Below, piece after piece: positions 4,691 to 45,610 of a stretch of DNA of 64,000 nucleotides (positions are counted from its first letter, which is position 1; the number at the start of each line of letters is the position of its first letter). The notes beneath the pieces are model-generated. The model was given only the letters and a program-made list of their open reading frames with translations. It ran no database searches and was not told the origin of the DNA. The DNA is from Jimgerdemannia flammicorona (taxonomy: Eukaryota > Mucoromycota > Endogonomycetes > Endogonales > Endogonaceae), in assembly GCA_003990745.1 (NCBI GenBank), contig RBNI01000009.1, forward strand, positions 1-64,000, read 5' to 3'. The position numbers and the translations under genes are program-made.

Positions 4691-5077
4691 ATATAGTTTG
4701 AGTACTTATAGTCAGTTTGCTATCTTTTTAGAGTAATTTTGAGACTCTTAATAATATATCTACCTTGTTACTAGTTATTTAACAAATAAGCTATAATTTA
4801 TTATAAGTTAAGATTAATATTGTAACAGTGATCTCAGAATAATGACATCAGCACAGAAGACAGTCTTTCCTTATAAGCCACTAGATCAGAGCATAAGAAG
4901 ATCATACAGTATGACTCATCTAGGCTATAAGATGAGCAATGATGACTAATTATGAGTCATTGGAACCATAAGACAGATATCTCAAGAAATATAAAAGAAA
5001 GATTAAGGAACCACAGTAGTAGCAACTCAATAAGACCTACTAATTCTGAAATAGCTCAAAGACTTACTACAAATAAA

Positions 5078-5881
5078 ATGCCTGCTGCTTGCCAAATCTC
5101 AAGATCAAGAAATCACTAAGATCTCTCAGTCTAGAAAAAGATATTTCAAGACATCTGAAGAGCCATAAAGACCTATACCACAAGGACTCCTAGTGTCAAC
5201 TTAGATACTGATAACTCTTATTATTATATCCCCTACTGCTATGAGATGGAAATAAGAATCACCATTACTACTAAATACCTCCAGATATAGTAAGAATATG
5301 AAATAGAAAATCTCTTCTATCAGGAATTTCCTCAAGCCAGCCCTCAAGAGCTATAAGATATCACTCTTATGGATATATGTAAAATAAGAACAGTTAAGAA
5401 GATTCATCAGATCTTCAGACATATATTATGGTCAATCTCTAACTTAGAGTATATCAGAGTCTCAGACTTCAGAGATCTGTCAACCTACTATATCAATGTA
5501 CTAGAAGTCATAGTAGCTATAGAAGCTCAGTCCACTATCACCTTCAATAGTAATGAGATAGAAGAGTTCTGATATCTCATCCTCCAGAACAACTCAGATT
5601 AATTCCTGCAAGAATTGATCTCAATATTTCAAGACCCAAGCATCCAGATTAGATCTCTCCAAGACCCCATATTTGTCTCTTATTTTGTAGAAGAGGACCT
5701 CATAGATTGGAGAGCCCCTGATCTCCTTACTCTCTCTGCTGTTAAATGTGATGATGTTATCAGCAATAATATCACCCTATATGATGAAGCATATAAAATA
5801 GATGAAATATTTATAGATCTCATCTCCTTTAAGGACAGTGATAAGAATAAAGCCCCTATGGTCCTGAACTTTCTACTCTAA
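5078..5881 (+). pseudogene. LTR-embedded 267-codon reading frame of element O (5' copy)
   Basis: Function not recognised. From an ATG 235 bases into the LTR, one frame runs 268 codons to TAA, broken only by stops of the kind made by C-to-T decay (TAG/TAA/TGA where W, Q or R would fit). The other LTR carries the same frame at the same offset, end to end, with no indel. The product would be acidic, with segments such as NLEYIRVSDFRDLS and EEDLIDWRAPDLL. It lies wholly upstream of the TATA box, so it would be expressed from the 3' LTR part of the genomic RNA. No signal peptide or membrane segment stands out. Confidence 0.6.
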
Positions 5882-6148
5882 TCTTGGTGATACTGAATTC
5901 TGTCAGCATTCTTTTTCATGTAACAGTTAATCCTTCCACTGGCATTCTGATTTTGTGTGACTCAGAATTCTTCCAGCATTCTTTTTCTGTATTACTGAAA
6001 TTCTACCAGTACTCTGAACTTGTACAAGCATCTGTACCAATACTGGAATCTATACTGACAACTGTAGTTTTCTGTATTTTAGTATTTTATTTGGTTATTG
6101 AAATTTGTATTTAGCTTTATATCTTAGTAACTATTGAATTATATTTTG

Positions 6149-6181
6149 TATAAATACCTCTTTTATTTTCTTCAAAATAAA
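6149..6181 (+). promoter_or_regulatory. TATA box and polyadenylation signal in O LTR
   Basis: TATAAATA at 6149-6156 is followed by AATAAA at 6176-6181. The second LTR has the same pair (TATA at 46921). This sets the U3/R region of the LTR. Confidence 0.55.
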
Positions 6182-6390
6182 GTTAGTTTCTCTCAGTATA
6201 ATATATATAATTCCTTACAAGTAATCTAAAGAGATAATAAGATAGTTTAAAGATAAGAAGTTTGAGGACTATAAGATCTTAAGAAGGTACTCTAATAAGA
6301 ACTTGCTTATAACAAACTTGAGTTAGTCTAAGAGATATACCTTGAAGAGAATCTGACATATTTGAAGGACTCAGCAACTACTATGTGATA

Positions 6391-9819: not shown

Positions 9820-11113
9820 TGTAAAAGGATTACTTATTAGAGTAACTATTATATAGTTCTAGAAGAGTTTTCTAGAAGTTCTGGAAGACTATTTTCTTAA
9901 GATCAAGATCAATTTTATATAGAGTATGTCCTCTATACTTATTGATTTCAAGATTTCAATCAAAGTCCTTATTTGGACTATTTCTAGATATTTAGGATTT
10001 TCCATATTTCAGAAAGTTCAAGAAACTAAGACCAGCTTAGTTGAATTGACATATTACTATAAACAATATCCAATTAGGAAATTTTGTAATGGGGTTAGGA
10101 GTAGGACCTAATGGGGAGTAGATTTACTTAAGAGTAGTTTGTGGGTTATTAAATAGGTTTATTCACTATTCATGATATTACTATACTAAGAGTAGTTATG
10201 TGAAGGGATATTGTGAGGAAGTGTTCAGAAATATTCTTGTATATTCAAGTCTGCCATTCTGAGGTCTGGGGGAGGGGATATTTATACTAGTAAGAAACTA
10301 TCTAGACTATACTAGATATGGATATAATACTTAGTATTTTGCTGAGTCAGAATATAGTCATATAGTATAAGTATGATCTAATATATCAAGAGATCATCTG
10401 ACTGCTGAGTCAGTTTACAGTTACATTATATAAGGCTAATCTAACTATACTATAACTACTAAGCTATCTATAGATTTAGATGCTATCTGAGTAGTCTTTA
10501 ATGACATCACTATCAATGAAGTAGTTGTCTAGAAAGAGTTATTCGCAGATTAATTCTCCTTATTTACTAAGGTAATAATATATTAGAACTTTATCACTAT
10601 CCCATAGAATAGCATCATCTGTCTCATATGCTAGATAAGATATTAGTGGGCAAAGAAGGGGTACATCATCTTTACTTTCATTGGATTTGCTGTCTGCATA
10701 CCTTCTATAAGTTATGGTACTATGAGTTGCTGGGTTATAGTAAGCTAGTAGCTGTAGTTCATATTGCTTATACTCGAGTGGTAAAGTTGTTGGTTTGATC
10801 TTGAGAGTTGTCTGGAGATATAGATTGTATTTTCTGGTCTCTTCATTGTAGTTAAAGTAATTAGGAGTGAATGTAGATTAGTACTCATACCAGTGATCAT
10901 TGTCCCAATAAGTCTCATATGTAGTTATAAACTGTTATAAATTTATTGGCAAGGTTGGTAAAGTGATCAGGGTTGATAGGGATCCTTGGCTGGAGGTCAT
11001 GTCAGTATCAGAGGGATCATTGTCTTCTGCTTTATCTTTATTAAATTAGATTATATCATAGACATCCTTCATAGTATATCCAACTTGAGGTATTTGCAGG
11101 ATATGATCATTAG
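9820..11113 (-). repeat. Element B left LTR, first part
   Basis: Reverse complement of the family LTR from its 3' end (TGTAAAAGGATTACTT, matching the end of the A LTR) to inside the embedded reading frame. It resumes at 21772 after A. The last five bases, ATTAG, are the left copy of A's target duplication. Confidence 0.85.
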
Positions 11114-11401
11114 TGTAAGTGCACAACCTCTAAGCCACAGAAATCACACATCACCCTCTTAACAAGCCACTGAAATCACATGCGACCTCTGAACAAATCT
11201 GGAAATCACCTGCATGATCACGAAGCTGAGTCAAACAGAAGTCACAGTGCATAAAGCTGAGTCAATACAAAGTCATGGAACATAAGGTTCACACAAACAG
11301 AATCTTACCAATTAAGAACAGATATATATATACTGAGCCCTGAGATATGTTGAAATAGAGAACCAAAACAAATAATAACCATAACTTCCAAATACACAAA
11401 T

Positions 11402-12499
11402 ATGACCACCGAGATCTACAACCGCATCTGCGCTGACATTTGGAATGCCATTGTCAACCAAGCCACACCCCCTCTGCCCCTTATGAATATCCATAGCCTC
11501 GCACCCCTCTACTTCATGGAAGCTTGATGGAATGCCCTGAACATACTTAACGAGGCCCACCAGATCAGACAAATCTCAAGCTACTACCAGATCGGCCACC
11601 TCTTGGAAGACATGATCGAACACCACTATGATACAGACATTACCCAGATGTCTCAACATCAGAAACTCATTGTCCGCAAATACCGAGAACTCTTCTATAA
11701 GTACAGTACCTTTATTCTCTGCCTCCGAGTTACTACCAGCGAAATGGTTGCTACTCTGTCCTACGGCCAAATCGATGACATGATACAAGAACTCAACCAC
11801 AAGTATCTTGAGTATGTTCAGACTACTGACAGAACCTTCCCACACTCTGACAACTACATCCTGCAAATGCCCCAAGTTGGATATGCCATAAAGGACATCT
11901 ATGATATAATTAACTTCGATGAAGACAAAGCAGAAGACAATGATCCCTCTGATGCTGACATGACCTCAAGTCAAGGATCTCTACCAATCCTGATCATACC
12001 GCCAACCTTGCCAATGAACTTACAACAGTTTATAACCACATACGAGACTTATTAGGACAATGATCACTAGCATGAATACTAACCTGCATTTACCCCCGAT
12101 TACTTCAACTACAATGAAGAGACCGGAGAACACAACCTGTACCTTCAGACAACCCTCGAGATCGAACCAACAACTCCACCACCTGAGTATGAGCGACATG
12201 AACCACAGCTGCCAGCTTACTACAACCCTATAACTCATAGTGCTGTAATCTATAGAAGGTACGCAGATAGCGAATCTGATGAAAGCGAAGACAATATACC
12301 CCTCCTTCGCCCACCAACACCTTATCTAGCATACGAGACAGACGATGCTATCCTGTGGGATAGAGACGAAGTCCCAATATATTATTACCTCAGCCAACAA
12401 GGAGAAGTAATCCGTGAACCATTCTTCCTAGATGACTACTTCTTCAGAGATGATGCAATCGATGGTGATGTTATCGAAGACTACCCAGACAGTGTGTAA
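11402..12499 (+). pseudogene. LTR-embedded 365-codon reading frame of family A/B (A 5' copy)
   Basis: Not a family I recognise. An ATG 288 bases into the LTR opens a frame of 366 codons ending in TAA. This copy has four internal stops (one TGA near codon 42 and three near codons 219-227); the 3' LTR copy reads Q or W at those places, except where it has its own different stops. The protein would have a mixed helical first half (LAPLYFMEA, ITQMSQHQKLIVRKYRELF, MVATLSYGQIDDM), then an acidic, Pro/Tyr-rich second half (ADSESDESEDN, IYYYLSQQGEVIREPFFLDD). It lies in U3, upstream of the TATA box. No transmembrane segment or zinc motif is seen. It is the same length in both A LTRs and recognisable in both B LTRs. 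Confidence 0.75.
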
Positions 12500-12688
12500 A
12501 CCTATAAATAGCCTAACAGTCATAGTATAATTAGATTAGTCTTATACGATGTAATGGTGAACTGACTCAGCAGTCAGATGATCTCTTGACATGTCAGATC
12601 ACACTTGTACTACGTGACTGCATTCTGACTCAGCAAAGCACTTAGTGCTACATCCATATCTAGTATAGTCCAGATAGCCCCTCACTAG

Positions 12689-12819
12689 TATAAATACCCC
12701 CTTCCCCAGACCTCAGAATCTCAGACCTGAACAATTCGAACACAACTCCTGAGCACTTCCTCACAATATCTCTTCACATAACTATTCCTAGTATAGCCAT
12801 ATCATGAATAGTGAATAAA
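12689..12819 (+). promoter_or_regulatory. TATA box and polyadenylation signal in A 5' LTR
   Basis: TATAAATACCCCC at 12689, then AATAAA at 12814-12819. They place the transcription start downstream of the embedded reading frame, leaving U3 about 1600 bases long. Confidence 0.6.
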
Positions 12820-13177
12820 CCTATTTAATAATCCACAAACCACTCTTAAGTAAATCTGCTCCCCATTAGGTCCTACTCCTAACCCCATCACAAAATTTCC
12901 TAATTGAGTATTGTCTGCAGCGATACGCTGATTCAACTAAGCTAGTCTTAGTTTCTTGAACTTCCTGAAATATGGAAAATCCTGAACATCCAGAACTAGT
13001 CTGAAAAAGGACTTTGGTTGAGATGTCAACCCGATCTTGAAATCAATAAGCATAGAGGATGTACTCCATATGAAATTGATCTTGATCATAAGAAAACAGT
13101 CTTCCAGAATATCCAGAACTTCTAGAAAACTCTTCCAGAACTATATAATGGTTACCCTAAAAAGCAACCCTCTTATA

Positions 13178-13200
13178 ACTTAGTAGCAGCGGTTTATAAT
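13178..13200 (+). other. Primer-binding site of element A
   Basis: The LTR is followed by ACTTAGTAGCAGCGG here and by ACTTGATAGCAGTAG in B. Undoing the G-to-A changes gives TGGTAGCAGCGG, close to the complement of a eukaryotic initiator tRNA-Met 3' end. Confidence 0.5.
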
Positions 13201-15204
13201 CCAATTCTACTTCAAGACACTTCCTCACTCCACTATAAACCCTTCTGTAAATTCCTACAAGTTGGTATAAAGCCCAACCTCTGAACTGGAATTTATTCTG
13301 AACTATCTGACAATCTGGAGAGAATTGAACCTGACATACAAGGACAATTTGACCTTCACACCTGCAACAAGTGGGACAAACTTCATTCAAAAAAAGAAGT
13401 ACTCCGATTAAATCAACAAATAGGCGAACACCTATTCACTGAACTCCTTGCACTACACCCAGTAAGTCAAGATGAAGAAGGTCTTATAGAAGCCTTCTTT
13501 ACTCTTCTCAACAAGAGTTTTGTCAGCTCTACAAATCTGAGCAACCTAGGATAACCAGCAGCAGTCTTTCTAGCCTTAGTTCCTTATGAAGCCCAAGCCT
13601 CTATAGCCAAGTGGCTCAACTCTACTGACTTTCACCATACCAGAACTAAGACCGCATTATACTACCAATTCCAGAATAGCAAGGCCGGCCATATTCTTAA
13701 GGAAGAAGCAAGAGAAACCCTTCATCAACTACCTGATCCTGAACCTGAAGCAGGCCCTGCTACAGCCCTACCTGAATCTGAAACCAATACCAAACCAGAA
13801 CTTGACTTTGAATTAAGTCTATCTGAAATCAGATATACAACTGATTCTGTCTACTTTGATGCCGAGCAAACCCAAGTACACAGAGACCAAACCCAAGAGG
13901 AGGAGGAGTATCTCAGTGAATTCGATCCCAGATATACCACCGAAGGAGATGTACCTCCATCAGGACAGAATACATCTACACAGCAACAGACAGCCATCTA
14001 TCAAGCCCTTACTCCAGACCCACAACTATTACTCCAGCAACTTACACAGACTCAAAGAACTCCATCACACTCTGCACTAGTATCTCAAGTAGTACCAGTA
14101 ATACCACTACCAGTAGTTCAACTGTCTCCAGTAAACAACATGGCAAACCAACAGATTCTAGACCTTACAGCCCAGGTAGCCATAATGGTAGCAACCATTA
14201 CTGCCTTAGCTGAACAGATCTGACCTACAAAAAATCTGAGTCTACCTACCTTCTATGGTACTGCACAAGAAGTCCAAAGCTTCATTAGTGTAGTTGACAC
14301 TAACTTTGAAGCCAATCAATAGACCAATGAGCAAGTTGCTGACCACATTCTAACAAACAACCAAGACCACACTCTGGAACAACTCTTTGCTACCACTACC
14401 GCCTATGTCCGCCAAGTTGTTATATTCTTCCAAGGACCTGCTGAAGAATGGTGGTGAACCCTTCTCGAAAAACCCCTCATATGGGACACCTGACCTGCAG
14501 TAGTTGCTCAGAATACAGCAAATAATGCCCCAGGATATGGAGACCATCCTGCAGCCCCTAGACTTAAACAACTCATGATTGCTCAATATCACAGTGAAAC
14601 CATGATCACTGAATCCCAAGTAAAACTCTGCAACCTCAAATTCGATGTATATGGTAAGGAGGAATTCGAAACCTTCTGTACAAAACTCGAGTCACTCCTG
14701 AACACTGTTGGCCTAGGATATATTGCCAATGACGAAGCATGAAATGGTATCAGAGCAGATCATCTATTTGATGCCCTGCCTGAATGGCTTACTAGAAAAA
14801 TCTGAGAACAAGGACGCCCAGTTGGTTGTGACCACCAACAATGGTGCCTAGCAAGAATCAAGACTATGGTCAAGTGGATCCTAACAGCTGGACCCATTCT
14901 GCCCTGAAGACAATTCAACAACAAGGAAAAGACTTGGACCAAGAAAGAAGAACCCAAGCATGAAGCATCCCGAGCTCCCTCAACATCCACTTTGTGAACA
15001 CCCAGAAATCATGAACCCACCCAGCCGAGTACCTTCAAGAAACTCACTGAAGGCAAAAGGAATGAACTTAGAAGAAGCAGAGCATGCTTCTATTGCCAAA
15101 AGACAGGACACATGACCAGTGCCTGCCCTAACCGAAAACCCTGAATGGCAACATGAGCAACTGTTACCACCCTGCACCACCTCAACAATCTGACTACCAG
15201 AATA

Positions 15205-15640
15205 CTAGACTTTGTCAAGTTAAGACAAACTGCTAAGGCCCCAACTAAAGAAAGTCAAAAAGTGGCTGAATATGACTTGTATGCAGCTGAAGAAGCTACA
15301 GTCTCCAACCGAGAAGTCAAGCAAGTCTACACAGGAATCAGCATCCAAATCCCTGAAGGACATGTTGGAAGAATATACTGTTACAGCAGCCTAGTATTGA
15401 AAGGACTCTCAGTAGAAGGAGGAGTCATTGACGAAGATTACACAGGCAAAATTATTGTCCTCATCTGAAACCACAGTTGGACACCCTTCAAAATTCCCAT
15501 TGGATTCTGTATTACCCAGATCCTATTCGAAAAAATCAAGTCAACCCTGACAGTCAAGGAAGTCCCAGAACTACTGCCCACCATCAGAGGATCTAAAGGA
15601 TTTGGCTCATCAAACAAGGTCCCAGTCCAACCTACCATAA
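15205..15640 (+). pseudogene. dUTPase domain of element A
   Basis: Part of the Gag-Pol frame, between the CCHC knuckle and protease. Motif 1 is AEYDLYAAEEATV and the beta core TGISIQIPEGHVGRI. The motif 2 region is YSSLVLKGLSV, motif 3 GVIDEDYTGKIIVLI, motif 4 IPIGFCITQILFEKI, and motif 5 RGSKGFGSSN. The catalytic aspartate of motif 3 is present. Element B has the same domain on the minus strand at about 27006-26560. The arginine usual in motif 2 is not obvious, so activity of the parent enzyme is uncertain. Confidence 0.8.
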
Positions 15641-18600
15641 ACAAAGAAGAACAATTCTACAAGAAAATTGAAGATGGATATGTACCAAGTGGCTGATGCC
15701 TCCATGGCATTGGAATGTACTCTTCCCGAATGATTGATGATTGCTTCTCTTGTGTCAATGAACTGGCTCAAAGAAGAACCAACCGAAGGAAAGCTCCTAC
15801 AACTGAAATTACTACCATTGGATCAGACAAACTGCTTACACTTAAAGCTTTTATCAATCGAACACTTGTCAAGATCATGATAGACAGTAGTGTCTCAGGC
15901 AACTTCATCAACAAAGAAACAGCCAACAGACTCAAGGTCTTCACCTCTCTGGTACAACAAACTCAAGCAGTTGCTACAGCTGATGGAATCTCACATGTCA
16001 TTAGCAAGGAAGTCTGCAATCTACCCTTCCGAATTGGTGACTACCAAGTACATGTTACCTTCTAGATTGTACCACTTCCTGACAACGAAATCATCCTTGG
16101 AACTCCATGGTTGAAACAAGAGAACCCCATGATCGATTGGGTAAACCATTCTCTGACCATCAAGAAAGGATGCCATAACTTCAAACTGTAAGGCAAAAAG
16201 GACCCACTCAACTCTAGTGACCCTGGACCAAAGATCACCCACATTAATAAGCTACAACTCAAGAAATTGGCCAAGAAATGCCCTCTCTTTGCTATCTCCA
16301 TTTGTTCATCCAAAGGAGAACCTGAGAACTCTGAAGAAGACTTTTCCAAAGTTGACAGCCATGTCAGACTACTACTCCAGAAATTCTGAGACATATTTCC
16401 TAAGAAACTCCCAAAAGGCCTACCTCTCAAATAAGCAGTGGACCATGCCATCAAGACTATTCCAGATGCCAAGCCAGCCTTCAAGTCAATCTACCACATA
16501 TCCCTGAGAGAAATTGATGCACTTAAGAAAGAAATTGACAAACTTCTGGAACAAGGATTCATCAGACCCAGTATATTACCTTATGGTGCACCAGTTCTCT
16601 TTGTTGTCAAGAAAGGAGGAGACCTGCGAATGTGTATTGATTACTGCAACCTCAATAAACAGACTATCAAGAACTATTGCCTGCTACCCAGAATCGATGA
16701 AATATTCGATAGACTTACCAATCCACAATTCATGAGCTCTTTTGACCTGCGAAATAGGTACTGGCAAATTGCTATGAAAGAAGAAGACATCTACAAGACA
16801 GCCTTCTGAACCTGCTATGGACATTTCGAATTCCTGATTATGCCCTTTGGCTTAACTAATGCTCCTGCAACCTTTCAGACACTGATGAATACCATTTTGC
16901 ACTCATACTTGGACAAATTTGTTGTTATCTACATTGACAATATTCTAGTCTTCAGCAAAACCCTGGAGGAACATCTTGAATACCTTAAGCTAGTACTACT
17001 GAAACTCTGAGAGAACAGACTCTTCACAAAACTCAGCAAGTGCAAATTTCTCCTGAAAGAAATCCAATTCCTTGGACATATTGTCACACCAAATGGAATT
17101 AAAGTGGACCCCAGCAAAATCTCCACAATCAAAGATTGGCCCAGACCCAAGAAGCTGAAAGACCTCTAGTCATTCCTAGGACTAGCAAACTATTACAGAC
17201 GATTTGTTGCCAACTTCGCCAAAATCGCCACTGCCCTTACCCAAATGACCAAGCACAGCAAGAAAGAAGAACAACCCTGGACTATGAAACAAGAGAAAGA
17301 CTTCAACAATCTTGCAAATTGGGGACCCGAACAAGATACAGCCTTTTAAGCATTGAAAGATACTTTGATAATCACTCTAGTACTTTAAGCAGCAAATCCT
17401 GCCCTACCATATAAAGTTACCACCGATGCCTCTGACCTAGCTCTTGGAGCAGTACTCATGTAAGAAGGACACCCTGTAGCCTATCACTCCCACAAGTTCA
17501 ATGATGCTGAAATCAACTATGCAACTCATGAGAAGGAAATATTAGCCATCATAGACACTCTGATCAAATGGCGACTATACCTAGAAGGAGCACACTTCAC
17601 TGTATTGACTGACCACAAGTTATTAGTCAACATCAAGACCCAGGCTACCCTTTCTCGAAAGCAAGCCAGATGGATGAAAGTTCTCACCAACTTTGACTAT
17701 GAAATCCAATACCGCCCTGGCAAGGAAAACATTGTTGCCAATGCAATCTCCAGACCACCCATTGAAGAAGTTATCCAAACTCTCATCCTGGTTACAAACT
17801 CCATCATGGAACAAATTATTACAACATGTGCTGATGATAAGGAAGCTCAAGCACTCTGAGAAATCCTGAACAGTGATGATGCTGACAAGCGTACCCAGTA
17901 CAACCAATATCAACTCAAAGATAATGCTATCTACTACAAGGACAGATTGTATGTCCCAAACAACTGAGACCTCTGAAGGACTATCCTATTCGAATGTCAT
18001 AATGCCCCTACAGCCAGACACTTAGGATTTGATAAATGCTATGAAGTTATCTCTCAAAACTTCTATTGGCCCTGAATGACAGATCAACTCAAGACCTACA
18101 TCACTTCCTGTAATGTCTGCCAACACAACAAGTCCTCAACACTAGCAAAACCTAGTCTACTCCACTCTATCCCAGTACCATCTGCTAATTGGGAACAAGT
18201 CTCTGTGGACTTCATTGTGCAACTACCCCGAACCAAGAACAGGAAAGATGCAATTGTTATCTTTGTGGACTATCTCAGCAAACAAGCTCATTTTATACCA
18301 ACCACTACCACTGCAATAGCACCAGACATAGCTATACTCTTGTTTGACAACATCTTCCGCTATCATAGTCTTCCTAAGATCATTGTTAGTGACCGAGACC
18401 CGAAATTCACCAGCCATTTTTGGAAAGCCCTCCATGTGCACCTTGGAACAAAACTTGCACTATCTACAGTATTTCACCCCAAAACTGATGGCTAAACTGA
18501 AAGGATGAACCAAACTCTGGAATAAATACTAAGAAACTATGTCTTCTACAGACAAGATGATTGGTATGAACATCTTACTACAGTCAAGTTTGCTTATAAC

Positions 18601-19074
18601 AACAGCAAGCAAGCCTCTCTTGGAATGACTCCATTCTTCGCCAATACTGGACAAAACCCAAACACTCCTCTGACACTCATCCAAACTACTAAAGAACCCT
18701 CCACAGTCAAAGCTGTTGAAGAATTCTTACTCCGAATGCATAATCTAAGCCAGATTACAATTGAGAATTTATCGTGAGCTCAAGAACAATAGTCATAGTA
18801 TATTAACCAACACTATCGAGAAGAAACCTTCAATATTGGAGAAAAAGTTCTATTAGACATCCGAGGATACCGAGTTGACAACCTCAAGCACAGACCATCT
18901 ACAAAGCTGAACAGCAAGTTCATTGGACCATTTGAAGTTATTTCACAAGTCTCTCTGACCTCCTACAAATTGGCACTACCAGACACCATTAAGATTCACC
19001 CAGTCTTCAATGTCTAATGTCTCAAGCAATACAATGACAATGATGATGAACTATTCCTGAACTGAACTACAAAA

Positions 19075-19262
19075 CCACCTGCACCTGTCATTATAAATGA
19101 CCAAGAAGAATATGAAGTTGAACAAATCCTCAACAGATGTGGCCACAAGAACCACCCAGAGTATCTCATTAAATAGAAAGGATATCCAATCCATGATACA
19201 ACATGGGAACCCAAGACCAATCTCCAGAATGCTACTGACTTAGTTCAGGAATATGATTTCTT
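19075..19262 (+). pseudogene. Chromodomain at the end of element A Pol
   Basis: After the integrase the frame reads EYEVEQILNRCGHKNHPEY, L-I-K, a stop in place of W, KGYPIHDTTWEPKTNLQNAT. This is the three-strand-plus-helix chromodomain pattern with its WEP motif, marking the family as chromovirus. Such domains can steer integration to methylated histone marks, which would fit insertion into existing transposons. B has the same domain at about 23120-22950. Confidence 0.75.
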
Positions 19263-19689
19263 GAACAACTGAATACTGAATACTCCTACACCTATCAGTA
19301 CATAATATATATTACCCTTCTGAATATTATAATTATCACGAACCTAATCAAGAACTCAGCAAGACAGAACAAAAGAATACTGACCCTCTGGAAAAATAGC
19401 AAAACTGAAAGCCAGCCTATTCTCCTCATACCACTGGTGGGAAACGAGGTGTAGACATTTAAGAAGATTCCTTAGAGGAAATTCTCCAGCAGTGAATGAT
19501 ATCAGAATCACTTCCGGCATACGGCATTGAATATACAACCCTTTAATGTGTGAATCCAATGCGTTAGACAACTGTACTACAAGCATGCCACTTTCTGAAA
19601 AAATGGACTTTACTGAACTTTTGATCTCCCAAACAGTGTAACAACACTAGAACAAAATTAGAAGGCCCCGACGAGGATGTCGAAAGCTA

Positions 19690-19701
19690 AGAAGGGGAGA
19701 G
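19690..19701 (+). other. Polypurine tract of element A
   Basis: AGAAGGGGAGAG directly before the 3' LTR; it primes plus-strand DNA synthesis in LTR elements. B has its complement at about 22513-22525. Confidence 0.6.
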
Positions 19702-19702
19702 T

Positions 19703-21766
19703 TGTAAGCGCACAACCTCCAAGCCACAGAAATCACACATCACCCTCTTAACAAGCTACTGAAATCACATGTGACCTCTGAACAAATCTGGAAATCACCT
19801 GTATGATCATGAAGCTGAGTCAAACAGAAGTCACAGCGCATAAAGCTGAGTCAATACGAAGTCACAGAACATAAGGTTCATACAAACGGAATCTTACCAA
19901 TCAAGAACAGATACATATATACTGAGCCCTGAGATGCGTCGAAACAGAGAACCAAAACAAATAATAACCACAACTTCCAAACACACAAACATGACCACCG
20001 AGATCTACAACCACATCCATGCTGACATTTGGAATGCCATTGTCAACCGAGCCACACCCCCTCTGCCCCTCATGAATATCTATAGCCTCGCACCCCTCTA
20101 CTTTGTGGAAGCTCAATGGAATGCCCTGAACATACTTAATGAGGCCCACTGGATTGGACAAATCTCAAGCTACTACCAGATCAGCTGCCTCTTGGAAGAT
20201 ATGGTCAAACACCACCATGATACAGACATTACCCAGATGTCTCAACATCAGAAACTCATTGCCCGCAAATACCGAGAACTCTTCTATGAGTATAGCACCT
20301 TTATTCCCCACCTCCAAGTTACTATCAGCAAAATGGTTGCTACCCTGTCCTACGGCCAAATTGATGACATGATATAAGAACTCAACCACAAGTATCTCGA
20401 GTATGTTCAGACTACTGACAGAACCTTCCTGCATCCCGATAACTACATCCTGCAAATGCCCCAAGTTGAATACGCCATGAAGGACATCTACGATATAATC
20501 AACTTCGATGAAGATGAAGCAGAAGACAATGATCCCTCTGATACTGATATGATCTCAAGCCAAGGATCTCTACCAACCCTGATCACACTGCCAACCTTGC
20601 CGATGAACTTACAACAGTTCATAACTACATACGAGACTTATTGGGACAATGATTACTGGTATGAATACCAATCTGCATTCACCCCCGATTACTTCAACTA
20701 TAATGAAGAGACTAGAGAACACAACCTGTACCTTCAGACAACTCTCAAGATCGAACCAACAACTCCACCACCTGAGTATGAGTGATATAAACCACAGCTG
20801 CCAGCTTACTACAACTCTGTGACTCATAGTGCTATAACCTATAGAAGGTACGCAGATAGTGAATCTGATGAAAGCGAAGACAATATACCCCTCCTTTGCC
20901 CACCAATATCTTATCCAGTATATGAGACAGATGATGCTATCCTGTGAGATGGAGATGAAGTCCCAATATATTATTACCTCAGCTAACAAGGAGAAGTAAT
21001 CCACGAACCACTCTTCCTAGATAACTACTTCTTCAGAGATGATGCAATCGATGGTGATATCATTGAAGACTACCCAGACAGTATGTAAACCTATAAATAG
21101 TCTAACAGTCATAGTATAATTAGATTAGCCTTGTATGATGTGATGGTGAACTGACTCAGCAGTCAGACGATCTCTTGACATGTCAGATCACACTTGTACT
21201 ACATGACTACATTCCGACTCAGCAAAGTACTTAGTGCTACATCTATATCTAGTATAGTCTAGATAGCCCCTCACTAGTATAAATACCCCCTTCCCCAGAC
21301 CTCAGAATCTCAGACCTGAATAATTCGAACACAACTCCTGAGCACTTCCCCACAATATCCCTTCACATAACTACTCCTAGTATAGCTATATCATAAATAG
21401 TGAATAAACCTATTTAATAACCCACAAACCACTCTTAAGTAAATCTGCTCCCCGTTAGGTCCTACTCCTAACCCCATTACAAAATTTCCTAATTGGGTAT
21501 TGTCTGCAGCGATACGCCGATTCAACTAAGCTGGTCTTAGTTTCTTGAACTTCCTGAAATACGGAAAATCCTGAATATTCAGAACTAGTCCAAAAAAGGA
21601 CTTTGGTTGAGACATCAACCCGATCTTGAAATCAATAAGCGTAGAGGACGTACTCCATACGAAATTGATCTTGACCATAAGAAAACAGTCTTCCAGAATA
21701 TCCAAAACTTCTAGAAAACCCTTTCAGAACTACGTAATGGTTACCCTAAAAAGCAACCCTCTTACA
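19703..21766 (+). repeat. 3' LTR of element A
   Basis: 2064 bases, same length as the 5' LTR. TATAAATA at 21278-21285 and AATAAA at 21403-21408 lie at the same offsets as in the 5' copy. Confidence 0.9.
19991..21088 (+). pseudogene. LTR-embedded reading frame of family A/B (A 3' copy)
   Basis: The same 366-codon frame as in the 5' LTR, 288 bases into the LTR, ending at TAA 21086-21088. It has a few stops of its own (TAA for CAA near codon 129, TGA where the 5' copy has CGA, TGA for TGG), but none of the other copy's four. Together the two copies imply an uninterrupted 365-residue ancestor. This 3' copy is the one the genomic RNA would carry, downstream of pol. Confidence 0.75.
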
Positions 21767-21771
21767 ATTGG

Positions 21772-22511
21772 AGTGTAGGAAGGTTCTATCTATGGTCTGA
21801 ATATACTCAAGGTACTTATGGTTGAGTTCTTATATTATGTTATCTATTTGGCCATAGGATAGAATAGTGAGCATTTCAGCAGTAGTAACTTAGAGACAGA
21901 GAATAACAGTACTATACTCATAGAAGAGTTCTTGATATTTATAGACAATGAGTTTCTGGTATTGAGATATCTGAGTAATATCTATATTATAGTAGTGTTT
22001 GACCATATCTTCTAGGAGGTAGCTGATCTGGTAGTAGCTTGAGATTTGTCTGATTTAGTGGGCCTCACTAAGCATATTCAGGGCATTCTATTGAGCTTTT
22101 ACAAAGTAGAGGAGTGCTAAGCTATGGATATTCATAAGAGGTAGAGGAGGTATGGCTCAGTTGACAATGGCATTCCTAATATCAGCATGGATATGGTTGT
22201 AGATCTTGGTGGTTATATTTGTGTATATTCAGGAGTTAAGATTGTTTGTTTAGTTTATTTTGGTTCTCTGTTTCAATATATCTTAGTGCTTGGTATATAT
22301 GCATTTGGTTCTGATTAGTAAGATTCTGTTTGTATGAATCTTATATTCCATGACTTCAAGTTGACTCAGCTTTGTGTGCTGTAACTTTGGTTTAACTCAG
22401 CTTCATAATCTTGCAGGTAATTTCCAGATTTGTTCAGAGGTCATATGTGATTTTGGTGACTTGTTCTAAGAGTGATATGTGATTCAGTGGCTTAGAGATT
22501 GTATGCTTACA
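21772..22511 (-). repeat. Element B left LTR, second part
   Basis: Continues the LTR begun at 9820 once A is removed. It covers the first part of the embedded frame and the LTR 5' end, finishing ...GCTTACA, with the complement of the polypurine tract next. Confidence 0.85.
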
Positions 22512-28956: not shown

Positions 28957-29056
28957 AAGAATTCTCAGAGGCATCTCTTTCCAGTACTATTCAGGTTACA
29001 CAACCTTTGGAGAGTACTTACAATATCGTTTTTGGAGAAAAGAGACTAATAACATA

Positions 29057-30239
29057 GTGACCGACAGGCAACCTGAAGTGCATACTGGGCAGGGTGGCCC
29101 AAGCGCTTTCGACTGGCAACAGGTGGGGAGGGGTCCAGGCCTAGGGGGGGGTATGAGGGGGCTGCTGGCAGGTGGACATGGAAGGGGTGGAGGAGGTGGC
29201 AGAGGTTCAGGATCTGGGAGGGCGAGCTTCATGGAGATGGTGAAGGGGAGACAGCAGGCATCAGGGCTGGAGGGCTAGCTGAGGAAGGGCAAGGAGAATG
29301 AGAAGGGGACAGTGCAGCCCTTGGAAGGGGGAGCAGTAGAGCTGGAGGAGTAGTGGCTGGGGGGAGTATGACTACTGATGGTGATGGGACTGTCAATCTG
29401 GAAAAAAATCTAGATGTGACGACTGATGGTGAGGCTGAGCAGCTGAGGCTTAGAAGACAAGAGGACTTGGCAGATGGTGTAACAGGTCTGGCAGTGGCCC
29501 TGTTGCTCAAAAAATCGATTTCGGCATTCACAGTCACACTGTGCTTCTAGGGCCTAGCAGTGACAGTGAAAATGGTACTGGGGCTCATCACTAAGCAGGT
29601 GGCCAGAGCTGCATCAGTGAAGTTTTTGAAGGGACTAAAGGGAGTGGAGGTGGGTTTTGAGGAGGCAGTGCCATTGGAGGAGGCTCTGAAGATTGGATTA
29701 GTGGTTGGAGAGGTGTGTGTTCTAATGGCACATTGTCTGAAGTGGGATCCCAGAGTGGTCCAATTGCTGGTGAAAGGAGTGCTGATGGTGACAGTGATGG
29801 AGATGAGAAAGAGGGTTGAGGATTTTATGGCAGAATATGGAGAGGTGGTGGATATCGGATTCCAGGTCTGGGAAGGGACCTCACTCAGAACTGGTGATGT
29901 GGATGTGAGGATTCGGCTGGCTGGGAAGGAAGCTACTGGGAAGGTGAGGGACTGGCCTTCAGCAATGGTCTGGGGAGTGATTTTATATAAGGTGACAAGG
30001 GTGAAGAGAAGTGAGGAGGAGGAGGAGGATTTATTGGAAGTGCTGGAAGAGTTGGATGATACTGTAGAGAGGCGGGCGAAGGCTTGGGCAGCTTTCGTAG
30101 AGTCAATGCACTTGGAGGTGGTGGATGGAAAGTAGATTCGAGTGACCAAGGAGTAGTGGGAAAGGGTTCAGGAACATAAGAGACAGAAAGAGCTGCTGGC
30201 CAAACTGGATAACAGACCACTGGGAAATGTAAGCAAGGT
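29057..30239 (+). pseudogene. L1 ORF1, first part
   Basis: Gly-rich amino terminus, then a Gag-like region ending ...LDNRPLGN, where L2 entered. It aligns with L2 ORF1 (30327-31520), with several stops. The frame resumes after L2 at 36136-36964. Confidence 0.7.
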
Positions 30240-30308
30240 ATCATCTCTTTTCAGTACTATTTGGGTTACACAACCTTTGAAAAGCACTTACAACATCGTT
30301 TTTGGTGA

Positions 30309-32354
30309 AAAGAGACTAACAATATAGTGACCGACAAGCAACCTGAGGTACGTACTGGGCAGGGTGGCCTAAGCGCTTTCGACTGGCAGCAGGTGGGGCG
30401 GGGTCCAGGCCTGGGGGGGGGCATGAGGGAGCTGCTGGCCGGTGGATGTGGAAGGGGTGGAGGAGGTGGCGGAGGCTTTGGATCTGGGAGGGCAAGCTTT
30501 GCGGAGACAATAAAGGAGAGACAACAGGCGTCGGGACTGGAGGGCTGACTGAGGAAGGGCAGGGAGACCAAGAAGGAGAAGGTGCCGATGCAGAGGGGAG
30601 CAGCCCTTGGAAGAGGGGGCAGTAGAGCTGGGGGAGTAGCAGCTGGGGGGAGTGTGACTGCTGATGGCAGTGGGACTGTCGATCTGGAAAAAAATCTAGA
30701 TGTGACGGTTGATAGCGAGGCTGAGCGGTTGAGGCTTAGATAACAATGGGACTTGGCTGATGGTGTAACGGGTCTGGCGGTGGCCCCGTTACTCAAGAAA
30801 TCGATCTCGGCATTCGCAGTTACACTGTGCTTCCAGGGCCTAGTGGTGATGGCGAAAATGGTGTTGGGGCTCATCACTAAGCAGGTGGCAGGGGCTGCAT
30901 CCATGAAGTTTTTGAAGGGCCTAGAGAGAGTGGAGGTTGGTTTTGAGGAGGTGGCTCTATTGGAGGAGGTGTTGAAGGTTGGATTGGTGGTTGGAGAGGT
31001 GTGTGTTCTGATGGCATGCTGTCTGAAGTGGGATCCGAGGGTGGTCCAACTGCTGGTAAAAGGAGTGCTGACAGTGACCATGATGGAGATGAGAAAGAGG
31101 GTTGAGGACTTCATGGCAGAATATGGAGAGGTGGTAGATGTCAGATTTCGGGTCTGGGAAGGGACTACGCTCAGGACTGGGGATGTGGATGTGTGGATTA
31201 GGCTGGCTGGAAAGGAAGCTACTGGAAAGGCAAGGGACTGGCCTTTGGCGATGGTCTGGGGAGTGATTTTGTGTAAGGTGACAAGGGTGAAGGGAAGTGA
31301 AGAGGAGGAGGAGGATTTGTTGGAAGCACTTGAAGAGTTGGAGGGTGCTGTAGAGAAGCGGGCGAAGGCTTGGGCAGCCTTTGAGGAGGCAATGCACTTA
31401 GAGGTGGTGGACGGAAAGTGGATTCGAGTGAACAAGAAGCAGTGGGAAAGGGATCAGGGGTGTAGGAGACAGAAAGAGTTGCTGGTCAAGCTGGACAACA
31501 GGCCACTGGGGAATGCGAGTGAGGGGAAGGGCATCAGGGGTGCCGGAGCGAGTATCTGGACTGGCAAGGAAGAGGGAAAGGACAAGAAGGCCAAAGGAGA
31601 GGATGGGGAGAAGACTAGTAAGGATCTCTTTGCTGATAGCATGCTGGAGGTTTGGGAGGAGGATTGGGAGGGCTCCCCTACTCCTACCCCCCTTATTAGG
31701 CATGGCCCGGCTTCCCGAAACAGGGTAGTAGAGGATGTGCAGATGCGAGGGGCCCAGAGGGTGCAATTCGGGGTTCCAGAGGTAGTGTATGGTGGACAGG
31801 TAGTGGCTACTAGTGAGGAGGAACTGGTGGATGTCCCAGAGGTATGGGATGAGTCTGTGAGTGTCGGGGCTGACACCACTATGTTGGATGGAGGGAGGCC
31901 AGCGACTCCGGGGGGGAAGGAGGTGGGGAACTTGATTTGGATGTAGTGGATGATGAATGACCTGGTGGCAGAAGAGTTGGGGGAGGTGGACTTGCGGGTG
32001 ATGAGTGATGAGCACTGGGCTGGAATACTGCAGGGGGATAGAGTGACGAAGGCATTGATGGCAGAAATTCTTGCGGTGTACCTAGTGGAGGAAGGGTATA
32101 AGGTGGATAAGGAGAGAGAGGTGGAGATGGCAGTCGTTGTGGGGGAGAGGGCTGAATACTGCTGGAACGAGCGATATGGACTGCGGCTCTGGCAGGAAGC
32201 ATGCATCGAATATCAGGAGGAGTTCGAGGAGAAGGCCGATGATGAGATAAATGAACTGCTGGCAGGATTGGAGGCCCAGAGGAGAGAAGAGGAGGAGGTG
32301 GCTGCAGAACACAATCTGGACACGGCGCAGGAGGAGATGAGCATGGAGCAGTAG
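30309..32354 (+). pseudogene. L2 ORF1 (Gag-like), about 680 codons with three stops
   Basis: One frame from 30309 to TAG at 32352-32354, interrupted by TGA (30546), TAA (about 30741) and TAG (31944). No ATG precedes the one at 30423, so the start is unclear. The first ~75 codons are Gly/Arg-rich. The middle contains the helical segment LLKKSISAFAVTLCFQGL and an EEEEEDLLEALEELEGAVE stretch. The end is strongly acidic and helical (EEFEEKADDEINELLAGLEA). I see no CCHC zinc knuckle, unlike many LINE ORF1 proteins. The presumed role is RNA binding in the retrotransposition particle, by position only. Confidence 0.65.
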
Positions 32355-32384
32355 AGATCAATTGACGACATATCATATATCATT

Positions 32385-35300
32385 ATGAACAGTACAACCA
32401 ACATTTTTTCTTTAAATGTGAATGGGCTATGGGAGGCTACTCGATATAGAAACATTTTTTCTTGGATGAAGGGATTGGAGGCCGATCTCTTCCTGCTGCA
32501 GGATGTTAGATGTGAGGATGATTTCGATAAGAAGGAGTAGACAAGGGAATGGAGAGGTGCCGCGATTTGGAAGGACAAGGTTGGAATTTTGGTTTGGAGG
32601 GGTAGAGGGGAGATACAGGATATGAGATGCTGGGGGGAGAGACTAGTCTGGGGAGAGTGGATTCGTACAGGTTGGGAGCCAGTTACTGTTGGCTTCTGCT
32701 ACTGTCCTGTAGTATAGGGTGAGCAGGTAGATTGGATGACAGGTTTACTGGAGAGCGGGAACTTTGTAGAGGCTGGAGTGGATGTGCTTGGGGGTGACTT
32801 CAATATGGTTTGGGACACACTATTGGATAGAACGGATAGAGGACGAGGTGCTGAGAGCAGGTGTGGAGAACTAGTAGCTTGGGAAGAGATCGAGAGACTA
32901 AGTGTACTGGTAGACACTGGGAGAGAGTGCTGGGGGAATAGGAGGGTTTATACATATTGGGCAGGGGGTCTGGGGATGAGAATCAACTGGATACTGATAG
33001 CTAGCTGCTGGGGCCTAGATGTTTGGAAGTCATTGGAGGTAGAATGGTGTCTATGGTCGGACCACTGGGGGCTGTTGGGACAGGGGTGCTTTGGGGGAAA
33101 GGGGGATGGGCCTGGACATTGGCGCCTCAATTCCTCTTTGTTAGATGATAAGACCCGGTGGGATGGGTGGGCTACAGACATTCAGCAGAGGGTAGAGAAT
33201 TGGCAGCAGGAGGGTGTCTCCATGGGAGTTCGGTGGATAAGGTTGAAGGAGATGGCCAAGATTTATTGGAGCGAGGCTGGCAAGGAGGTGGGGAAGCAGA
33301 GGAGACATAGAGTGCATTGGGCTTCTACTAGACTAACTAAGCTACTAGAGGAGTGGGCAAGGTTAAAAATGTTGGTGGGAGAAGAGGACTGGAGGTTAAT
33401 GAGGGTGAAAATGGAGGTCAGAGAGCTACAACAGGTGCTGCGGGAAGAAGAGGAACTGAGGGTATGGGGTTTGGTGGCACGTCTCTGCTGGCAGGATTTG
33501 GAGGAAGGGGAGAGGCCTTCCAAGTTTCTTACAAGGGCTCTTAGGGCGAGACGGGTACAGCAGCGGTGGGAAGGGGTGCTGGATTCCGAGGGTGTTCTGG
33601 TGTATGGAGTACAGGACATTCTTGGATCGCTGAAGGAGAGATGGAGTGGATTGTGGAGTGAGGAGGAGGGTGGGGCAGATGCCATGACTATTGGCCAAGC
33701 GTTGGAGGATTGGCACCCACTACAAGTTGAGGGGCTAGATGACCTGGTGATGCCAGTACAGGAAGAGGAGATCTACCAGGTTCTCACCACGACAATGCCA
33801 GGTATGGCACCTGGAGAGGATGGTCTGCCCTGGGACTTTTGGAAGCGAATGGTGGGAGTCCCAGGGGTGATAGGAGAGATGACAGCATTGTGTGACTCCA
33901 TTCTACAGATGGGGAGGTGGGTGGGGGAGCAAGACCTTGGGCTGGTGATGCTACTATATAAAAACAAAGGAAGGCAGAAGAATTGGAAGAACTGGCAGCC
34001 GATAATGTTGCTTGATATGGACAGGAAGTTGGTGACCAAGGTGGTGGTGGCGAGATTATAGAAGGTGGCCCAGCAAGTTGTGGGTATGGAGCAGAGGGGA
34101 TTTGTAGGTGGTCGGCTCATCAGGGATGGCACTGCATAGGTACATGGAGTTATTGAAGGGGCAAGAGCCTGTGGACTGGATGGGTGACTAGTCTTCTTGG
34201 ACCAGGAGAAGGCTTATGACTGGGTGCGCAGAGTCTAGCTGGTGAAAGTTTTAGATAGGATGGGGGTTCCATCCCAATTCTGGTCAGCGATGATCAGCCT
34301 ACTGGAAGGGAGTAGGGCTGTGCTCATGTGTAATGGTCATCGAGGGGTAGCATTCCCCTTGGGCAGGGGGGTGCCCCAGGGGGACCCACTGTCCCCCATT
34401 TTGTACACTCTTTCTCTGGAACCCCTTATGGATAGAATTCAGCAGAAGATAGAAGGACTCTCTGTTTTTGGCATAGGATGGAAAGTTGGGGCCTTCACAG
34501 ATGACATGGTGGTTAGTTTGGGTTCGATTGCTGATGTTGAAGAACTCAAGAAGACTGTGGAGTGGTATGAGGAGCACTCAGGAGCGAAGTTGAATTGGTA
34601 TAAGTGTGAAACAATGGTGCTTGGCAATGGTTTGGTGGGAGGGGAGGTTATAGGAACAATCATCCCCACTGGTGAGACAGTGCGGTACTTGGGCATCTAT
34701 CTGTCTGTCTATGGGTCAGTGCTGCCCAGGCTGTGGTGGGAGCAGAGGATTGGAATCTGGGAGGAGGCCCTGCAGAGTTGGGGGGGTAGATATTTTTCTC
34801 TGGCAGGGAGGGTCTTGATTTTGAATGTCTACTGGCTGCCGAAGTTGTGGTACCTGGCTTATCATCTGGACTTCCCAGCTTGGGTGGTGAAGCAATTGGT
34901 GAAGTCAGCAAAAGGTTGGATCTGGGCTGGAAGATGGAGTCAGATCGATTGGGAGACCTTGTCCCTACCTGTGGCAAGAGGTGGTCTGGGGCTGGTTGAC
35001 TTCCCAAAATGACTATGCTGCTTGAGGGCATGGTGGCTAAAGAGAGCAGTAGAATTGGGAGGAAGTAGTTGGGTTCCTCTGCTACAGAAACTCTGGGAGA
35101 GGCGGACATCACCAAGGGGTGCAACTGGGGACCTCCTTGCATTAGTTGGACTTTAGGATACTAAGCGACTGCATTATAGGGGATTTTGGTAGGGGATAGC
35201 AGAGGGGGCGCACCGCATTGGAATTCATTGGCAGGGGAATGAAGGGGAGGAGGATTGGGGCCCAGTGATGTGGAGATGGGATCGTGTATTGCTGGGTGGT

Positions 35301-36041: not shown

Positions 36042-36135
36042 TGGGTGGTGATGTTGTATACTTATTCATAGACTGGTAATAAAGGCGGAGTCCAAGTGAC
36101 TATAAAAAAAAAAAAAAAGGAAATGCAAGCAAGGT

Positions 36136-36964: not shown

Positions 36965-36994
36965 AGATCGATTGACAACATACCATATTTCATT

Positions 36995-40651: not shown

Positions 40652-40794
40652 TGAGTGGTGATGATGTATACTTATTTATAGACTGGTAATAAAGGCAGAG
40701 TCCAAGTGACTATAAAAGAATTCTCAGAGGTATTTGTAGTAGGGTGAGGAAGTATCTTGAAGTGGAATTGAATTGTAAACTACTGCTATCAAGT

Positions 40795-42839
40795 TATAAG
40801 AGGGTTATTTGTTAGGGTAACTATTACATAGTTCTAGAAGAGTTTTCTGGAAGTTCTGGAAGACCATTTTCTTAAGATTAAGATCAATTTTATATAGAGT
40901 ATATCCTCTATACTTATTGATTTTAAGATTGGGTTGACATCTCAACCAAAGTCCTTATTTGGACTATTTCTGGATGTTCAGAATTTTCTATATTTCAGGA
41001 AGTTCAAGAAACTAAGACCAGCTTAGTTGAATTGGCATATTACTGTAGACAATACCCAATTAGGAAATTTCATGATGAAGTTAGGAGTAGGACCTAATGG
41101 AGAGCAGATTTACTTAAGAGTAGTTTGTGGGTTATTAAATAGGTTTATTTGCTATTTATGATATTGCTATACTAGAAGTAGTTGTAAGAAGAGATATTGT
41201 GGGAAAGTATTCAGGAATGTTCTTATATATTTGAGTCTGTCATTCTGAAGTCTGGGGGAGGGGGTATTTATACTAGTGAGGGGCTATCTGGACTATACTG
41301 GATATGGATATAGTACTTAGTACTTTGCTAAGTCAGAATATAGTCATATAGTATAAGTATGATCTGACATATCAAGAGATCATCTGATTGCTGAGTCAGT
41401 TCACAGTCATATCATACAAGACTAATCTAACTATACTATGACTGCTAAGCTATCTATAGATTTAGATGCTATCTGGGTAGTCTTCAATAATATTACTATC
41501 AATGAAGTAGTCATCTAGAAAGAGTTGTTCACAGATTAATTTTTTTTGTTTGCTGAGGTAATAATATATTGAGACTTTGTCACCATTCTATAGAATAGTA
41601 TCATCTGTCTCATATACTGGATAAGGTATTAGTAGGCAAAGGAGGGATACATCATCTTCACTTTCATTGGATTTGCTATCTGTATATCTTCTATAAGTTA
41701 CAGCACTATGAGTTGCTGGGTTGTAGTAAGCTGGTGGCTGTGATTTATATTACTCATACTCAGATAGTAGAGTTGTTGATTCAATCTTAAGAGTTGTTTA
41801 GAGGTACAAGTTATATTCTCCAGTCTCTTTATTATAGTTGAAGTAATTAGAAGTGAATGTGGATTAGTACTTATGCCAGTGGTCATTGTCTCAATAAGTC
41901 TCATATATAGTTATGAACTATTGTAAGTTCATTGGTAAGGTTGGCGGAGTGATCAGGGTTGGTAGAGATCTTTGGCTAGAGGTCATGTTAGTATCAGAGG
42001 AATCATTGTCTTCTGCTTCATCTTTATCAAATCAGATTATATTATAGATGTTCTTTATGGTATATCTGACTTGAGGCATTTGCAGGATATAGTCATTGGG
42101 GTGCAGAAAGGTTCTCTCTGTAGTCTGAATATACTCAAGATACTTATAGTTAAGTTCTTGTATCATATCATCTATTTGGCCATAGGATAGAGTAGTGACC
42201 ATTTCAGTAGTAGTAACTCAGAGGCAGAAAATAACAGTGCTATACTTGTAGAAGAGTTCTTGATGTTTGTGAGCAATGAGTTTCTGGTGTTGAGACATCT
42301 GAGTAATATCTATATTATGGTAGTATTTGACTATGTCTTTTAGGAGGCAGCCAATCTGGTAGTAGCTTGAGATTTATCTGATTTGGTGGACCTTGCTAAG
42401 CATGTTCAGGGCATTCTATCAGGCTTCTATGAAGTAGAGGGGTGCTAAGCTATGGATATTCATAAGGAGCAGAGGGAGTGTAGCTTAGTTAGTAATGGTA
42501 TTCCAAATGTCAGTACAGATACAGTTATAGATCTCAGTGGTCATGTTTGTGTATATTCAGGAGTTAGAGTTGTTTATTTGGTTTTTTTTAGTTCTCTGTT
42601 TCAATATGTCTCAGTACTTAGTATATATGCATTTGGTCTTGATTGATAAGATTCTGTTTGTATGAATCTTGTATTCTGTGACTTTGAGTTGACTCAGCTT
42701 TAAGTGCTGTGACTTTGGTTTAACTCAGCTTTATGATCTTACAGGTGATTTCCAGATTTGTTCAGGGGTCATGTGTAATTTCAGTGGCTTGTTCAAAGGG
42801 CAATGTGTGATTTAGTGGCTTGAAGGTTGTATGCTTACA
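40795..42839 (-). repeat. Element B right LTR (its 5' LTR)
   Basis: About 2045 bases, reverse complement of the A LTR. Starts TATAAGAGGG (consensus TGTAAGAGGG), ends GCTTACA. It carries the embedded reading frame on the minus strand (about 42552 to 41440), heavily decayed but collinear. The B leader with its primer-binding site lies just outside, at 40770-40794. Confidence 0.85.
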
Positions 42840-45600: not shown

Positions 45601-45610
45601 TTTTGACCAA

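Follow-up and report, generated by a model that had tools for sequence, protein, structure and literature searches.

Long terminal repeats (LTRs) normally hold regulatory switches and no genes. The best-known comparable retroviral case is the sag gene of mouse mammary tumor virus (MMTV), a vertebrate retrovirus with an env gene; sag acts on the vertebrate immune system and matters for the viral life cycle. The sag frame lies mostly in the unique 3' region (U3) of the LTR, with one reported promoter within U3 and several promoters overall, including the 5' LTR, and purifying selection on it (0.289) is detectable among mostly dead copies (PMC4667437; statements on published systems, here and below, draw on extracts of the papers cited). 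Plant LTR retrotransposons can carry additional open reading frames (aORFs), such as the antisense ORFs of Retand/Grande, which are described as internal-region genes, are kept in most copies of some families and have a role that is unknown or thought to be regulatory (PMC11963269), and Retrosat2 has an extra ORF beyond gag-pol, ORF0 (PMC3485330). Among fungi, dUTPase-bearing chromoviruses have been described from Phanerochaete, Postia and, as Tmt1, Tuber melanosporum, in a paper whose figure 3 legend names an "additional ORF" (PMC2864245), and the crapaud element of Podospora anserina has a U3 that varies unlike the rest of its LTR, for which the authors suspect non-neutral evolution (PMC10787394). 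Here we describe a 365-codon frame in the U3 of the LTRs of element A, a Ty3/gypsy retrotransposon in a 64,000-nucleotide stretch of the fungus Jimgerdemannia flammicorona (contig RBNI01000009.1, positions 1 to 64,000; hereafter the window). From comparison of the copies, we consider it probable that the U3 of this chromodomain Ty3/gypsy LTR carries a real, selected protein gene with its own TATA-like promoter and an accessory role. What would be new here is a selected gene in the LTR of a non-retroviral LTR retrotransposon, the organization of a gene in U3 being itself known from sag.

The frame runs from ATG to TAA at the place where the sequence-only reading of the window had put it, and direct coordinates bear out that both LTRs of A are 2064 bp long with the frame ATG at offset 288 (Table 1). 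It sits in U3, between TATA-like boxes at 11325 and 12689. The internal stops of the 5' copy (codons 42, 218, 223, and 227) have none in common with those of the 3' copy (codons 129, 265, 319, and 332). The earlier statement that stops mostly fall at different codons therefore holds between the two A copies, but less so for the neighboring element B, in whose 5' copy five of 12 stops (42, 218, 227, 265, and 319) match a stop of some A copy. The same frame had also been ascribed to all four LTRs of the two elements: it is present in both A copies and, with a 15-base deletion, in the 5' LTR of B, whereas the 3' copy of B is split by A and has ATA in place of ATG. A and B do not look like two families, since the copies read grade into one another and differ in how far they have decayed. 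The 20 A-like copies read are 92–94% identical to their nearest neighbor and 90–92% to the window copy, with one truncated copy lower, and the 20 B-like copies have a lower identity to the window copy than the A-like ones.

A first look at the genome (134.8 Mb, 7754 contigs), with 40 to 150 matches scored per search, gave unverified candidate counts of 2763 (N-terminal piece of the frame), 2994 (B frame) and 3317 (a distant relative, P0002), next to 1555 for reverse transcriptase (RT) and 1865 for a gag piece. These would give about two LTR frames per RT, the ratio expected of mostly full-length elements. The first 128 codons are free of stops in many of 150 scored copies, a list ranked by protein score and hence biased. 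Our alignment took 20 of 39 matches outside the window to the A frame, 20 of 39 to the B frame and, leaving aside the split B copy, three copies from the window, with further rows from 8 of 94 and 8 of 10 matches to synonym-shifted patterns. Diverged subfamilies were sought with these patterns, and the 16 matches read all belong to the same family, with best stretches of 82–90%. The resulting 59 rows represent 57 distinct copies, L064 lacking the frame start and L037 and L050 being the same place.

Variation in the frame is dominated by decay. Transitions account for 528 of 569 variable columns (37 rows), and C-to-T change, counted on both strands, peaks at CpG, followed by CpA, CpC, and CpT. 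In L009-L064 this decay, strongest at CpG and then CpA, lies between classical repeat-induced point mutation and methylation-linked deamination. Variants were split into C-to-T/G-to-A decay, T-to-C/A-to-G changes and transversions, the main threshold requiring the minor allele to be present in 2 or more of 46 rows; codon tests used 46 of the 59 rows, after removal of L064 and of 12 rows with a frame length not divisible by three. At CpA, decay hardly depends on position or frame (0.187, 0.155, and 0.190 at codon positions 1 to 3; 0.207 and 0.174 in the flanks), and the nonsynonymous-to-synonymous ratio of the decay class in the frame is 0.983 for any variant, 0.936 at the main threshold and 0.847 for variants in at least four rows (p = 0.035). 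The T-to-C/A-to-G class behaves otherwise: at the main threshold it affects 14.3 of 397.7 nonsynonymous against 64.7 of 168.3 synonymous sites (ratio 0.094, p = 1e-25), and 10/158, 5/237 and 64/171 columns at codon positions 1, 2 and 3. Transversions have a ratio of 0.149 (p = 1e-8, same threshold), and other thresholds give 0.111 and 0.213 (any variant) or 0.110 and 0.157 (at least four rows) for the T-to-C class and transversions, respectively. A positive control, RT-RNaseH in 30 copies of the same family, gave 0.039 and 0 at the main threshold and 0.13 and 0.11 for any variant. The two other sense frames reach 2.8 and 3.4 in the T-to-C class and 0.8 and 1.6 in transversions; six flank controls range from 0.69 to 1.39 in the T-to-C class, none significant, and from 0.20 to 1.32 in transversions. 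The comparison shows that the frame was under purifying selection in the replicating source elements, which the non-decay variants trace.

A raw dN/dS would be misleading, since the C-to-T decay that follows insertion is close to neutral and, if not set apart, drowns the signal. The sequence-only reading had held that a value near 1 would speak against a gene; such a value says little when nearly neutral decay (0.98) masks selected non-decay variants (0.09–0.15). The contrast in codon periodicity with the rest of the LTR, which it proposed as a check, proved strong. The signal also begins where the frame does. In the 47 codons before the ATG the ratio is 0.99, it drops to 0.19 in the first 60 codons after it (the first 30 hold two variants only), and the following five frame blocks give 0.13, 0.10, 0.02, 0.06, and 0.29, the lowest block being codons 181-240; past the stop codon it is 0.40 (11 variants only) and then 1.28. 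Over its 1098 bases the frame has no indel in 44 of the 57 distinct copies, its length is divisible by three in 46 and it is fully open, with zero internal stops, in two. Indels number 0.27 per kb in the frame versus 4.5 in the part before it, 0.8 in the stretch directly after it and 2.8 in the repeat and unique 5' (R-U5) part, rates that count a shared indel once per copy, so that events are not independent. The periodicity of the non-decay variants, the onset of the signal at the ATG, the scarcity of indels and a relative of 65% identity thus strongly support the coding ancestor that had been proposed.

How the gene might be expressed is suggested by the motifs around it. Of 57 gap-free rows, in which one copy was entered twice, 55 have the core of box 1, ATATATAC; TATATATAC and CATATATAC variants of the box stand upstream of the frame ATG, and the start codon is ATG in 51 of 55 gap-free rows and ATA in four. 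Box 1 suggests a U3 promoter of the gene's own, distinct from the presumed genomic TATA at 12689. In such a two-promoter LTR, box 1, some 70–77 nucleotides (nt) 5' of the ATG, would drive the LTR gene as a short accessory-protein mRNA terminating at that LTR's own poly(A) site, and box 2 would give rise to genomic RNA. Since the short mRNA would start and end in one LTR, genomic RNA would not be needed, and the gene could be expressed by each of the two LTRs and by any solo LTR. We lean slightly toward viewing the LTR as a gene-carrying promoter cassette, with every LTR, solo copies included, a possible expression unit for a trans-acting protein, parallel to but independent of MMTV sag. In reverse transcription, both LTRs receive the U3 found at the 3' end of the RNA, and selection on the gene in that RNA would thereby preserve it in both.

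Alternatively, the gene may be real but have as its message the 3' end of genomic RNA, as initially supposed, or a spliced RNA linking the 5' leader with U3 in the 3' LTR, box 1 being a chance product of AT-rich sequence. We regard this as possible but rather unlikely. U3 is necessarily at the 3' end of the genomic RNA, box 2 is the better conserved of the two (TATAAATA in 51 of 52 gap-free rows; 99th versus 80th percentile), and MMTV sag transcripts have been reported from the U3/R junction of the 5' LTR, from env and from U3 (PMC4667437). However, the recurrence of the ATATATAC core, its promoter-like distance to the ATG and the A/C-rich leader argue more for a transcript of its own, and on genomic RNA more than 6 kb would separate the frame from the gag start upstream of it. 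The description of the frame as resembling an accessory gene is a fair one.

The naturally open copy L023 encodes 365 amino acids (43 kDa, pI 4.28) with a long, acidic, proline- and tyrosine-rich tail, the last 55 residues having a net charge of -14. Hydropathy reveals no env-like membrane segment, the highest 19-residue mean, 1.02, being below that of a usual membrane helix. Searches of Pfam, NCBIfam, PHROGs, and PDB with the open copy returned no match (Pfam and PDB at E ≤ 1), a two-sequence profile against PDB gave two chance-level matches only (E 0.58), and DUF6827, weak for window pieces (E 0.0015 and 0.13, below cut-off), was not seen with the open copy. The one relative found among 5.8 billion proteins is P0002, from a 998-base public contig, with 65% identity and 82% similarity over 251 residues; the two proteins end alike. 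A profile search of the protein database found P0002 again and no further relative, and scans of viral and prokaryote contigs, in which records near this genome may be absent, confirmed none. The best 150 of the 3317 genome matches to P0002 are 65–70% identical to it; the genome thus apparently contains a single lineage, distinct from that of P0002. An origin from gag was also considered and set aside, no similarity to the element's Gag being found with three gag pieces (hhalign probability 0.2 each).

Elements can capture genes, and a protein unlike any recognized element protein, the three gag pieces included, could be a host gene fragment that was captured by one LTR and passively carried, having served the host rather than the element. 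This is very improbable, as selection is seen in the amplifying lineage itself, although somewhat weaker than on RT, and no single-copy host gene was seen among the best-scoring matches (41, 150, 40, and 150 scored, most of them not read).

Several points weigh against a selected gene with its own promoter and accessory role. The surroundings of box 1 are AT-rich, and the conservation of its modal 9-mer is unexceptional for the LTR (80th percentile) and no more than suggestive. The role of the protein is read from composition alone, as both AlphaFold models (open window pieces and P0002) were unusable, with predicted local distance difference test (pLDDT) scores of 38 and 32, and the structure prediction that had been recommended thus yielded nothing. 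Decay is not perfectly flat, being raised at the third position at CpC, CpG, and CpT, and it falls below 1 in RT as well (0.77, p = 0.016); the split between decay and source variants is therefore not clean. At CpC, for example, decay is 0.080, 0.074, and 0.133 at the three codon positions, and variants in fewer than five rows have no third-position excess (0.037, 0.036, and 0.031), a pattern that fits a mix of neutral decay and older source variants. One flank control, upstream frame 1, is low in transversions (0.20, p = 0.002). Lastly, the antisense frame that shares third positions with the LTR frame gives 0.12 in the T-to-C class. This last value, together with a 129-amino-acid antisense ORF in both A copies, could make the frame an artefact, whether a chance open stretch, the shadow of an antisense gene or an effect of local composition, a reading we consider highly improbable. 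Transversions favor the sense frame (0.149 versus 0.302), the other sense frames and the flanks behave as given above, and the coordinates of the 129-amino-acid ORF place it in a different antisense frame, the codon-aligned one, which has a ratio of 2.2. The low-ratio antisense frame has 22–38 stops in each of 44 rows and the sense frame 0–14, and these stops rule out an antisense gene; we take the antisense 0.12 as a shadow of the shared third positions for this reason. It is just as improbable that the frame encodes an envelope-like protein of a retrovirus-like element, since, despite its place after pol in the genomic RNA, the usual site of env-like genes, the open copy has no hydrophobic segment, on which ground this identity was dismissed, no Pfam match and a highly acidic tail.

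The product of the gene may, with low confidence, act in trans in an accessory or regulatory role, and not as an envelope or an enzyme. An acidic tail rich in aromatic residues would be in keeping with an activator or a factor that acts on chromatin, composition being poor evidence. Our tentative first choice is an acidic transactivator or anti-silencing factor, followed by a more doubtful Gag-particle helper.

The gene resides in an element that is itself decayed. The two LTRs of A are 92.2% identical, and the element has direct terminal repeats, short inverted ends and a target-site duplication (ATTAG at 11109-11113 and ATTGG at 21767-21771, differing at one base); the U3 of its 5' LTR is judged to extend to about 12720. 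The gag-pol frame is interrupted by 36 stops, counted as far as mid-chromodomain. Pfam searches with open pieces list CCHC, dUTPase, protease, RT, RNase H, integrase, SH3-like, and chromodomain regions, and at least one piece passes the cut-off for each of the CCHC knuckle, dUTPase, RT, RNase H, the Tf2-1-like SH3 and the chromodomain, protease and integrase matching only below it. The order protease-RT-RNase H-integrase is present along 15697-18492, and the chromodomain (PF00385) is C-terminal to the integrase, above cut-off at 19177-19269 and below it at 19066-19173. Because of these Pfam domains, A is classed by domain content as a Ty3/gypsy chromovirus, complete but decayed. A dUTPase lies between gag and protease, at 15157-15693 on the plus strand (PF00692, E 9.4e-18 and 2.5e-5 in two open pieces). 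The long N-terminal part of gag (13180-14220, plus strand) has an acidic tail and no recognized domain, and is unlike the LTR protein.

Table 1. Features of elements A and B and of the LTR gene, in window coordinates.
Feature	Coordinates	Strand	Details
LTR gene, A 5' LTR copy	11402..12499	+	ATG to TAA, 365 codons plus stop; 4 internal stops
LTR gene, A 3' LTR copy	19991..21088	+	ends TAA; 4 internal stops
LTR gene, B 5' LTR copy	41462..42544	-	15-base in-frame deletion; 12 internal stops
TATA-like box 1, TATATATAC	11325..11333	+	77 nt upstream of ATG; proposed LTR-gene promoter
Proposed 5' leader, A/C-rich	11350..11401	+	ends ACAAAYATG in most copies
TATA box 2, TATAAATA	12689..12696	+	presumed genomic-RNA promoter, 3' of frame stop
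5' LTR of element A	11114..13177	+	2064 bp, TGTAAG...CTTATA; direct repeat with 19703-21766
Internal region of A	13178..19702	+	gag-pol, single frame; purine-rich tract just before 19703
3' LTR of element A	19703..21766	+	2064 bp; terminus CTTACA
5' LTR of element B	40795..42839	-	82% identical to A LTR
B 3' LTR, first part	21771..22511	-	split by A insertion; ATA at start-codon place
B 3' LTR, second part	9822..11102	-	beyond A insertion

Element B runs on the minus strand from 42839 to 9822, with A inserted within its 3' LTR. Nested repeats occupy B near its 5' end (28969-40720): 28972-30229 is repeated at 30242-31515 (about 85%), and a 4.6-kb unit resembling a long interspersed nuclear element (LINE), with RVT_1 matches, spans 31509-36110 and is repeated at 36119-40720 (about 85%). 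Elsewhere in the window there is a satellite-like tandem array at 51994-55457, with units of about 176-185 bp whose listed copies are 61–98% alike, a dispersed repeat pair (4841-6384 and 45609-47156, 86% identical) and, beside the repeats, a piece of a host ammonium transporter gene at 59947-61068 on the minus strand (PF00909, E 1.5e-105). The sole full-length 5.8S-like match found in the genome, L095, is presumably decayed, to judge by its appearance; its sequence was tentatively read as fungal, probably of a filamentous ascomycete.

Annotation, dating and repeat masking all take LTRs to be non-coding. A selected U3 gene would break the neutral-LTR assumption of dating, and solo and 5' LTRs might make protein. 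If this proves general, a class of LTR-retrotransposon accessory genes may have been masked away.

No precedent for an LTR gene in an LTR retrotransposon was found in searches of the open-access literature, most subscription papers, that on Tmt1 included, being outside this scope, and a phrase search of PMC7264820 for frames placed in the LTR gave no hit. The plant aORFs are likewise extra genes beyond gag-pol but, unlike the LTR gene, they are internal (PMC11963269). The dUTPase chromoviruses of other fungi are of the same chromodomain gypsy plus dUTPase type as element A, and the extract that describes them mentions no LTR gene (PMC2864245). The LTRs of crapaud measure 339–443 bp with a divergent U3 of less than 200 bp, compared with 2064 bp in A, and are too short to hold such a gene (PMC10787394). 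Nearest in organization is MMTV sag: both frames lie in U3, and hence in solo LTRs, and both show selection amid dead copies (PMC4667437). A promoter within U3 has been reported for sag, whereas the LTR gene here has a conserved TATA-like motif only (PMC4667437). Homology to Sag is not indicated by the open copy, which matches no Pfam family and no PDB chain at E ≤ 1, Sag not having been compared directly, and element A differs from MMTV in being a fungal chromovirus in which no env was recognized. The dUTPase of betaretroviruses has been likened to that of fungal chromoviruses (PMC2774666), and the dUTPase of element A is its second resemblance to betaretroviruses, beside a gene in U3.
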